64,000 nt of DNA from Chloroflexota bacterium (GTDB lineage: Bacteria; Chloroflexota; UBA6077; SHYK01). The translations under genes were made by a program, and so were the position numbers. How positions within the stretch are numbered: the first letter of the stretch is position 1; each line of letters starts with the position of its first letter. The stretch is taken from NCBI GenBank assembly GCA_009692845.1, contig SHYK01000001.1:62001-126000 (forward strand), given 5' to 3'. This document shows, piece after piece, positions 29,264 through 47,581 of this stretch. Below the pieces are notes generated by a model. It was not told the DNA's origin and made no database searches. It saw only the letters and a list, made by a program, of their open reading frames with translations.

Positions 29264-29971
29264 TCAGGCGGCGAAGATAGCGCGCCCGATCCGGACGACC
29301 GTTGCCCCTTCTTGGATCGCGATAGCATAGTCATCGGTCATCCCCATCGACAGCCCCAACGGGCCAAAGCTCGGATGGGACTCTTGCAACCGGTCGCGGA
29401 TCTCCCTGAGCTGTCGGAAGATCTGCCGTACGCCGTCCGGTTCGAGTCCCAGCGGAGCCACCGTCATTAGACCCCGAATTGACGGGTGAGGATATTCCGC
29501 AATGATATCGAAGGCTTCTGCTACATTGTCAGGGGCAAATCCAAATCGCCCGGTGGTTTCGGCGAACTGAACCTCAAGGAAGATCGGGATATCTCGGTTC
29601 GCCGCACCGGATATTTTCAGAGCGATCGCCAAGCCGTCGACAGACTGGAGCTCGTCGAACAGGTCCAGGGCGGGCCTTACCTTGTTGGATTGCAGATGCC
29701 CGATCAGATGCCACCGAATCGGGTTCGGCGCGCGTTGCTTGATGAACGGAACCTTAGGGGCGGCCTCCTGAACCCGGTTTTCGCCGAAATCCTCGAGGCC
29801 GGCCGACACGGCATCGGCAATGGCCTCCACTGGGGCCCCCTTGCTGACACCGATCAGCTGGACCACGTCCGGCGACCGTCCGCTAGCGGTCGCCACTTGA
29901 GCGATGCAATCGCGTACCTCACGGAGGCGCTGTTCGACCCTCAAGCGGGTCGATCCGGCACGATGTCCCAT
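29264..29971 (-). CDS. PLP homeostasis protein (YggS/YlmE/PROSC family)
   Basis: The 235-residue protein shows the family order: [37 protein letters not shown] with the PLP lysine in [74 protein letters not shown] and [27 protein letters not shown]. It binds PLP and helps balance vitamin B6 and amino-acid pools. The ORF start overlaps the ftsZ end by about 30 bases; a later start is possible. Neighbours ftsZ and yggT give the ylm-like arrangement of Gram-positives. Confidence 0.93.
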
Positions 29972-31089
29972 TCACTGGGCAGAATTGTCGGCCCTTCGCG
30001 TCGTCGCGGTGGAGTTGGTCGATCCAGCCACTCAGTGGTTCGGGGGCCGCGACCCAAAGGGCCAGGGGTGTCGGCTTCACCCGTCCCAAGGTCGGTCGCG
30101 GTCCAACTGGTCTGACGACCGGCCCGATCACCCGTCCAGCGGGTGGGCTCGAATCCGGTCGCAATTACCGTTATGCGGACGTCGGCCCCCATGGCTTCGT
30201 CGATTACGGCGCCGAAGAAAATATTGGCGTCCGGGTCCGCGGCCGCTCCCACGATCTCGGCTGCACTATGCACTTCTTGCAAAGTGAGGTCAGGGCCACC
30301 GGTGATATTGAAGAGAACCCCGCGCGCGCCCTCCATTGAAAGGTCGAGCAGGGGACTGGTCATTGCCAGCCGGGCCGCTTCCACCGCCCGATTCTCGCCA
30401 GTCGCTATGCCGACCGCCATCAGTGCCGCGCCAGGTTCGGACATGACGCTGCGCACGTCGGCAAAATCCAGGTTGATCAAGCCGGGCTCGGTCACCAGAT
30501 CGGAGATGCCCTGGATACATTGGCGGAGCACCTCATCGACCATTACAAAGGCCAACTCCATGGAGGTGCGTCGGTCAATGACCTGTAAGACCCGATCGTT
30601 GGGGATCGCTATCAGGGTGTGGACGCGCTCGCGAAGTGCCTCGATGGACTGCTCAGCGTTCCGTTGCCGCCGAGTCCCCTCAAAAGAGAACGGCCGAGTA
30701 ACCACTCCGACGGTGAGGGCCCCGGTATCTCGAGCGATTTGGGCAATCACCGGTGCAGCCCCTGATCCAGTTCCCCCGCCCATTCCGGCGGTGACGAATA
30801 CCATATCGGCCGCGCGACAGATCGCCCGAATCTCCTCGCCGGTCTCCTGAGCCGCCGCCGCCCCTACCGATGCGTCCCCGCCGGTACCGAGACCATGAGT
30901 GGTATGTTCGCCGATCTGAACCCGCCGGGAAGCGAGCGCGTTGGCCAGGGCCTGCTTGTCGGTGTTGAGAGCGACGAACTCAACCCCTTTGACTCCAGCG
31001 GCGACCATTCGTCCGACCGCATTGGATCCTGCCCCACCGACGCCGAGCACCACAATCCGAGGAGTCAGCGCCTTCATTCGATCAATCAT
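29941..31089 (-). CDS. ftsZ: Cell division protein FtsZ
   Basis: The 382-residue tubulin homologue reads [29 protein letters not shown], the GTP loop [20 protein letters not shown] (about 100-119), and the T7 loop [12 protein letters not shown]. It polymerises into the division ring. The last 60 residues are a disordered, charged linker ending [18 protein letters not shown], without the usual IPxFLR-type peptide that binds FtsA and other partners. It lies 7 bases after ftsA. The domain body is entirely normal, so only the tail is unusual. Confidence 0.96.
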
Positions 31090-31096
31090 GTTTTTC

Positions 31097-32317
31097 TCAT
31101 GGCAGGAAGTTGCGGAACCAAGCGCGCAAACCGTCGAAGGATCGTGAGCTCGATGCCTCTAACCGGCCGGCCGGCACGAGTTGGTCACGACCCCATTCAA
31201 GGAGCCCCACGCTGGCGGCGAAGCTCGGGCTTCGAATGGCATCGGCGAGGCCGATGAGATTGTCCGGCGCTCCTACGCGTGAAGGGGCTTGGAAGATCTC
31301 GGATGCGAGCTCTGAAACCCCCGTAATGAGCGCTCCTCCGCCAGTCAGCACGACCCCCGCCGAGTAGGTGGCGTCAAAGCCGGCCCGGGCGATGTCTGCG
31401 TGCAGCAGCTCAAAGGTTTCGGCGAGGCGGGCATCGACGATTTCGGCAACTGTGTAGCGTTCCAGGTCCTGGGCTTCTTCCCGTCCGTATGCGGGGATCT
31501 GAATTCGCTCGCCTCGGCGCGCGGTGTCGAGAGTCGATCCGTAGCGGATCTTCACTTCCTCGGCTACAGCCAGCGACGTTCGGAGGCCGTAAGCCAGGTC
31601 GTTGTTGATCTGGTAGCCGCCCACGGGGAGCACCGATGAGTGGACGATGCGGCCATCTCTAAAAATGGCTCCATCGGTGGTCCCGCCTCCGAGGTCGATC
31701 ACCAATGAGCCGAGCTCTCGTTCGGCAGATGATAGGACGGCTCGACCAGCTGCAAGCGGCGCGAGGACAATCCCGTCTGCTTCCACATCGACCGATTCGA
31801 TGCATCTGACCAAATTGTGAATCGGGGTCGTCGAGCCGGTAATGATGGTAGCCTCAATCTCCAAGCGGCGACCTAACATGCCAACCGGATCCTGGATGCC
31901 CTCCGTGCCGTCCACGATGTAGTGGTGGGGGATGACGTGCAGGATCTCTTGGTCGGCGGGAAGCTGGATCACCCGGGCAACGTCAATGACTCGGGCGACG
32001 TCGTCAGGGCTGATGACATTCGATGGATCGCGGACCGCTACGACCGCATGGGTATTCGTCGAGCCGATGTGGGCACCGGTGACTCCGAGAAAGACCCGCA
32101 TGGCCTTGAAGCCGGACTGCTGCTCGGCGCGTCGGAGTGAGGTCGACACGGCGGCCGCGGCTGCCTGCACATCCACGACAATGCCTTTCCGCATTCCCTG
32201 TGATGGACAAATTCCGACACCGAGGATCTCCGGTTTGTCGCCACCGACATCCGCAATGAGCGTGCAGACCTTGGTGCTGCCAACATCTACGCCGACAATG
32301 ATCTGATCACGAGCGAT
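31097..32317 (-). CDS. ftsA: Cell division protein FtsA, probable ATC start
   Basis: The track ORF (to 32194) starts at residue 42. The same frame upstream encodes [20 protein letters not shown] and [20 protein letters not shown], the conserved FtsA start with its first phosphate loop. No ATG, GTG or TTG is in frame; GGAGGT lies six bases before ATC 32317 (ATC GCT CGT GAT), the codon where family alignment puts Met. Length is then 406, normal. Further motifs: NTHAVVAV (1C subdomain), [17 protein letters not shown] and [14 protein letters not shown]. FtsA is an actin-like ATPase anchoring FtsZ; the C-terminal [10 protein letters not shown] is the membrane-binding amphipathic helix. Confidence 0.92.
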
Positions 32318-32413
32318 AGCCGTACCTCCACGTAGTGTCCGCGCCAGCTCGTGGAGGTGGTTTCGCGGAGGAGTGCCGGGGACGGGTCGATGATAGCAGA
32401 GAAGGTGCCCAGG

Positions 32414-33298
32414 TTAGTGAAAATATGGGCGGTCCAAGGAGCGTACATCCACGATCTCGGCGGGAGTTCGGGTGTCATCCAAGTAGCGCCGAATAGTCCG
32501 GTACGCCTGCAGTTTGGCATTGAGGTGGTCCGATGATCCGAGGATCACTCGATGCTGGGGTCCGAGGATGGACATGCCGGCGCCCGGCTGGTATTGGAGC
32601 TGCCCGCCCAGCAGGCCGAGCGCTTCGAGCATCGGGCCGACCCGCTCGCCGATTTCAACCGCCGAAGGATCGACCCGTCCTCCCTCTCCTGCTGGGCTAT
32701 CACCTATTGCGTGCACCACGGGGAGATCTCTGGTTCCTTCGCGCAAGGTGACTCCGGTCGAGTCCACGAGCACCTCCCGTCCAGCGGCCTTCCAGATCAC
32801 CACGGGCGTGCGCTCGGTCACCGCGACGAAAATCACGCCAGTCAGACTTGGACGGACGTTGGCACTCTGTATCACCGGATGGGCGTCAAGGAGGTTGGTC
32901 AGGCGGCGGGGCTGAATGTTGAAAACATTGGATCGCCCCAGCCCGAGCGCGCCGGCAATCTCTTCGGCTGGCACCAGATCATTTCCAGAGACTAGGACGC
33001 TGGTGGCTTCGAAGTCGACGGACGAGACCAAAGTTCGGATGGACCACACCGAGAAAAGCAAGGCGGTCAGGGCAAAGAGCTTTCCAAGCACGTCAATGGT
33101 CCACAAGCGTCTCGCGAATTGCCCCGCGCGGTTGGGCGACGATTCTCGGGTCGGTCCTCGCGACTGCCTTGGAGCAGGGCTAGCGCGCTGGCTCGATCGC
33201 CGAGTTGGTTTGTGCCCACGTCGCATTTCGACCCGCTCAGGTCGGGTAACCCTTTGGGGAAGCAGCCTAAGCCGGAGGTAGCTCGGCGGTTGATCCAT
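32414..33298 (-). CDS. ftsQ: Cell division protein FtsQ/DivIB
   Basis: The 294-residue protein has a basic, proline/arginine-rich cytoplasmic N-terminus of about 70 residues, one transmembrane helix (LFALTALLFSVWSIRTLV), then a POTRA domain FEATSVLVSGNDLVPAEEIAGALGLGRSNVFNIQPRRLTNLLDAHPVIQSANVRPSLTG and a beta domain with VTERTPVVIWKAAGREVLVDSTGV. This is the standard FtsQ/DivIB layout, part of the FtsQ-FtsL-FtsB complex. The end is unusually short. It sits between murB (3 bases upstream) and ftsA. Only the first-line POTRA motif is quoted; the overall match is clear. Confidence 0.92.
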   Translation of the reverse strand: MDQPPSYLRLRLLPQRVTRPERVEMRRGHKPTRRSSQRASPAPRQSRGPTRESSPNRAGQFARRLWTIDVLGKLFALTALLFSVWSIRTLVSSVDFEATSVLVSGNDLVPAEEIAGALGLGRSNVFNIQPRRLTNLLDAHPVIQSANVRPSLTGVIFVAVTERTPVVIWKAAGREVLVDSTGVTLREGTRDLPVVHAIGDSPAGEGGRVDPSAVEIGERVGPMLEALGLLGGQLQYQPGAGMSILGPQHRVILGSSDHLNAKLQAYRTIRRYLDDTRTPAEIVDVRSLDRPYFH

Positions 33299-47509: not shown

Positions 47510-47581
47510 TAGGCCCGGAAGGAGTCGGACCTTCCACATGTCGCTTATAAGGCGACCGCTCTACCGCTGAGCTACGGGCCC
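47510..47581 (-). tRNA. tRNA-Ile (anticodon TAT)
   Basis: On the minus strand acceptor GGGCCCG pairs with CGGGCCT (one G-U), D arm AGCTCAGCGGTAGAGC, anticodon stem GTCGC/GCGAC encloses CTTATAA giving TAT, and T arm GAAGG-TCCGACT-CCTTC. TATACT at 47596-47591 is a likely -10. TAT reads the AUA codon directly; the more common bacterial form uses CAT with lysidine. Confidence 0.93.

Follow-up and report, generated by a model that had tools for sequence, protein, structure and literature searches.

An AUC or AUU codon as the probable translation start of the cell division gene ftsA in a family of Chloroflexota

In one family of uncultured Chloroflexota, the gene of the divisome actin FtsA carries ATC or ATT (ATY) at its homologous start position in five of the five genera compared, and the use of this codon as the translation start is strongly supported by the alignment of the sequences. 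The explanation that we consider best, and likely to be correct, is that initiation at AUC or AUU involves the normal initiator tRNA and a strong Shine-Dalgarno (SD) sequence, with a low and IF3-sensitive synthesis of FtsA relative to FtsZ.

Results

The ftsA locus and its reading frame

The window, i.e. the whole stretch of 64,000 nucleotides that was analysed, belongs to contig C3 of a draft genome (G000; 1.88 Mb, 88.9% complete), the named relatives of which are Chloroflexota. Its minus strand bears an ordinary dcw cluster in the order murC, murB, ftsQ, ftsA, ftsZ (Table 1); ftsQ, ftsA and ftsZ were identified by NCBIfam profiles, and murC and murB by reading of the open reading frames. No stop codon interrupts the ftsA frame from the end of ftsQ to the FtsA stop at 31099-31097, and on the minus strand of the window this frame contains no ATG, GTG or TTG ahead of codon 42 of ftsA. 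The start region reads, on that strand, 5'-CGTGGAGGTACGGCT-ATC-GCTCGTGATCAG-3', the ATC being 32317-32315.

The original prediction had claimed that 41 residues absent from the annotated open reading frame are present in frame upstream of it, without an ATG, GTG or TTG available to start them. Both statements were borne out: the first canonical in-frame codon is the ATG of codon 42 (32194-32192), and the match to TIGR01174 is full-length only if the protein is started from ATC. In this case residues 6-374 cover profile positions 1-370/371 with 400 bits against a cut-off of 175.85, whereas the match of the ATG-started protein begins only at position 38 and the phosphate-1 motif DVGSTK is lost. 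The SHS2/1C domain insert and the FtsA domain are both recognised above the cut-off (PF02491 and PF14450). The ATG of codon 42 was rejected as a start, since it removes the catalytic DVGSTK motif and the relatives do not have it. With only canonical starts allowed, 41 residues of an essential protein are thus lost here.

Table 1. Features of the ftsA region and the infC gene (window positions unless another contig coordinate is given)
Feature	Position	Strand	Basis or remark
ftsA, 406 codons from AUC plus stop	31097..32317	-	TIGR01174 400 bits, full length; PDB FtsA matches from query residue 3-7
Proposed AUC initiation codon of ftsA	32315..32317	-	ATY in 5/5 family genomes; onset of coding constraint
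First canonical in-frame codon (ATG, codon 42), ORF-finder choice, rejected	32192..32194	-	would delete profile positions 1-37
Shine-Dalgarno GGAGGT, six bases 5' of AUC	32324..32329	-	sequence; anti-SD duplex about -10.7 kcal/mol
Hairpin that could hide the ftsA SD	32324..32358	-	weak evidence
ftsQ, upstream; stop TAA 32416-32414, same frame as ftsA	32414..33298	-	ORF list; NCBIfam NF004039 weak match; syntenic in relatives
ftsZ, downstream, ordinary ATG start	29941..31089	-	TIGR00065 397 bits
infC (L033)	G000:C3 about 446169-447041	-	start ATA

Conservation of the proposed start codon and its surroundings

The family was sampled by five draft genomes, one per genus (G000-G004), with FtsA identities of 60-79%. 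The homologous codon is ATC in G000, G004, G002 and G001 and ATT in G003, so that all five share AT at the first two positions, while C or T, and in no case G, occupies the third; judged from this comparison, five ATY out of five is more than chance. Relatives of the same order and class that lie outside the family have a canonical ftsA start at the homologous codon or only a few codons away, and the same holds for another 79 Chloroflexota ftsA loci, drawn from a separate collection, in agreement with the earlier claim that ATC occupies the site at which FtsA homologues have their methionine. Because the five family members form one clade with 100/100 support in a tree of 25 FtsA proteins, the simplest reading is that the AUC/AUU start arose once and was then retained.

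The GGAGGT that the original prediction had placed six bases before ATC is found at 32329-32324 with a spacer of that length, and a strong SD in register with the ATY codon is present in all five family genomes. The duplex energies, computed against an assumed anti-SD sequence, are -10.7 (G000), -12.7 (G004), -9.8 (G003), -14.1 (G002) and -9.0 (G001) kcal/mol; the tRNA-Ile/Ala stretch that was inspected for the actual anti-SD contains no end of the 16S gene. Among the G000 genes compared, the best canonical starts have a median of -6.4 kcal/mol, and about 10% of the compared genes attain the -10.7 kcal/mol of ftsA in G000.

Other elements between ftsQ and ftsA are less widely distributed. A hairpin of ACCTCCACG (32358-32350) with CGTGGAGGT (32332-32324) could hide the SD; its z is about -2.4 on a 60-nt stretch chosen post hoc and -0.5 to -1.0 on longer stretches. 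A similar stem occurs in G004 (z -1.45) and is absent from the other three relatives, so the hairpin was discarded as a family feature. At 32390-32398 on the minus strand, TGCTATCAT resembles an extended -10 promoter element; such elements occur in three family genomes, namely G000 (in the window), G004 (TGCTATCAT) and G001 (TGGTATCAT). A scan with the sigma-70 promoter consensus upstream of ftsA called no promoter.

These data bear on the main rival explanation, by which AUC/AUU is the real start and yet a merely tolerated one, fixed by drift and compensated by the SD, with no regulatory meaning. The strong SD in all five genomes could indeed restore expression, and no other regulatory element is common to them. 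A single substitution would nevertheless give ATG, and none of the five genera has it despite a divergence down to 60% identity and free third positions elsewhere, so that we regard drift as unlikely.

Evidence for a translation start at this codon

Across the five family genomes, the 15 codons upstream of ATY are 37/35/31% identical at codon positions 1/2/3, no more than background if the G-rich SD is set aside, whereas the codons after ATY are 79/92/45% identical. The latter pattern is a protein-coding signature, and coding constraint begins exactly at the ATY codon. In G000, G002 and G003 the sequence ahead of the phosphate-1 motif offers no usable canonical codon. In G004 a GTG occurs in frame at -5, within the G-rich SD region and out of SD register; G001 has a TTG at -15 and an ATG at +5, the ATG again out of register. 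Taken alone, these two genomes would be ambiguous as to the start position.

A start elsewhere, at a non-conserved upstream codon or at a downstream one, could draw on the codons that the open frames hold: CTG at -10 in G000, GTG at -5 in G004, TTG at -15 in G001 and ATC at -8 in G003. No position is common to the genomes, however, and G002 has no such codon upstream; moreover, protein conservation ends abruptly at ATY, and the downstream ATG drops the catalytic motif. We consider a start elsewhere very improbable.

The original prediction had named an error in one base (ATG taken for ATC, base 32315) as the simple alternative and the codon of sister genomes as a check. None of the four sister genera has ATG, GTG or TTG (they have ATC, ATC, ATC and ATT), and since ATY stands at this position in all five genera examined, a sequencing error does not explain the ATC. 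All that speaks for an error is how rare AUC starts are a priori, against the same property in four independent genomes, one with a different third base, and its probability is negligible. That the trait extends over the whole family, with AUC and AUU alternating, and that infC has it too goes beyond the original prediction. Equally far-fetched is the production of FtsA through readthrough of the ftsQ stop or through programmed frameshifting out of an overlapping frame: the two genes do share one frame in the window, with a single TAA between them, but ftsQ ends in another frame in G003 and G001, a further stop intervenes in G002 and the upstream codons are without constraint.

The AUC start is thus supported by ATY in five of five genera, the SD in register and the onset of constraint at the codon. 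Its position, its conservation and its single origin follow from the comparison of genomes, and actual initiation at AUC/AUU is what we infer from them.

Specificity within the genome and the infC gene

The comparison set 663 kb of G000, taken in stretches, against stretches of G001-G004; this partial sample included 102 genes with comparable N-termini. The test sought a conserved ATH in SD register with no canonical start nearby and is blind to genes with a chance canonical codon upstream. Only ftsA and infC, the gene of IF3, were without a canonical start among the 102 genes, which argues against a general relaxation of start choice. Two more ATH matches were discarded, the third being a site inside a gene and the fourth adjoining canonical starts.

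The infC start, inspected by hand, is ATA in G000, G001, G002 and G003 (L033, L032, L034, L035), and G002 and G003 offer no canonical alternative. At the infC N-terminus of the order's other families (L036, L037, L038, L245-L251), ATC, ATT or ATA stands in an SD context, and an AUH start of infC seems to be order-wide. This distribution makes autocontrol of IF3 through its start codon plausible in this lineage. The IF3 domain PF00707 was found in the same four family genomes and not in G004, which is incomplete.

Discussion

The normal initiator tRNA would read the AUC of ftsA, or the AUU of one genus, as the start, with a mismatch at the third position. An initiator tRNA with the ordinary CAU anticodon was detected in G001 and G003, so no altered tRNA needs to be invoked. 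Pattern searches that allowed other anticodon bases found no initiator tRNA in the drafts G000, G002 and G004 and gave only CAU where they succeeded; an altered initiator was dismissed on these grounds.

Initiation complexes that form on a codon outside the AUG, GUG and UUG set are destabilised by IF3. An AUC or AUU start would be inefficient and destabilised by this factor, which would result in a low, IF3-sensitive rate of FtsA synthesis, while the strong, well-spaced SD would enable the start and offset its inefficiency. By this route FtsA might be held at a low level compared with FtsZ, the product of the next gene, which has an ATG start. The reason to keep FtsA low may lie in the fact that in E. 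coli too much FtsA prevents division if FtsZ is not raised as well (PMC5508204), and a balance of FtsA and FtsZ would then be the purpose of the codon. Both the reduced efficiency of the start and its IF3 dependence are expected by analogy with the sigR and Staphylococcus starts discussed below; on this analogy, the AUC/AUU codon probably holds FtsA production low and under IF3 control. A bolder extension, to which we give a little less than even credence, is that the family has put FtsA among the starts policed by IF3, so that the supply of FtsA, and division with it, would be coupled to the state of translation initiation by IF3, which also autoregulates through the AUA start of infC.

Weak AUH starts are already known from infC, pcnB, rnhC, ccpN and cvfC1. 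The infC gene, which starts with ATT or ATC and is subject to known autocontrol (PMC5472188), resembles ftsA of this family in its conserved AUH-type start outside AUG, GUG and UUG, and is present in the lineage with ATA; it encodes the proofreading factor itself, whereas ftsA is a division gene and at most a target. The GTC start of sigR in Streptomyces is conserved and accompanied by a strong SD; IF3 represses it and SigR is thereby kept below its partner RsrA, a balance that is broken by a swap to a canonical codon (PMC5472188). The likeness to ftsA extends to a rare conserved start behind a strong SD, to drift between GTC and GTT as between ATC and ATT, to the first position in a stoichiometric gene pair and to a canonical codon inside the SD that invites misannotation (cf. 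the GTG of G004). The two differ in codon type, gene function and phylum, and sigR has been proven experimentally while ftsA rests on sequence comparison.

Conserved AUU and AUA starts with an extended SD yield roughly 10-30% of the AUG output in Staphylococcus (PMC13009471), where cvfC1 (AUU), ccpN and citZ (AUA) likewise combine a fixed weak start with a strong SD (PMC13009471). Reduced output is common to these genes and to E. coli pcnB (AUU), and would apply to ftsA by analogy; they are other genes, and their cases are experimentally supported. In Listeria, rnhC resembles ftsA in that an ATC start is fixed in all genomes of a clade (PMC13068326), although rnhC is not a division gene and the fixation is at the species level.

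The new element is a family-wide weak AUH start on a core divisome gene. Our literature search, which was short on subscription journals, found no report of ftsA with a non-canonical start, and, if true, the family-wide AUC/AUU codon would be the first such start of a core division gene in the literature searched. Gene finders do not allow starts outside AUG, GUG and UUG, and such starts therefore seldom come to notice. The codon suggests a simple means of setting the FtsA:FtsZ ratio and of coupling division to translation.

Elsewhere in the class, FtsA gave no match at E <= 1e-60 in G020 and G026 (family f12), nor in G025 and G028. Only weaker MreB-like matches occur in the two f12 genomes, which are 94-96% complete, and ftsA may have been lost or be very divergent there. 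With regard to the decoding of AUA, which in bacteria is normally performed by a modified CAT tRNA, ARAGORN predicted in the window a tRNA-Ile with the anticodon TAT, which is unusual in bacteria (L062; G000:C3:109510-109581, minus strand; window about 47510-47581).
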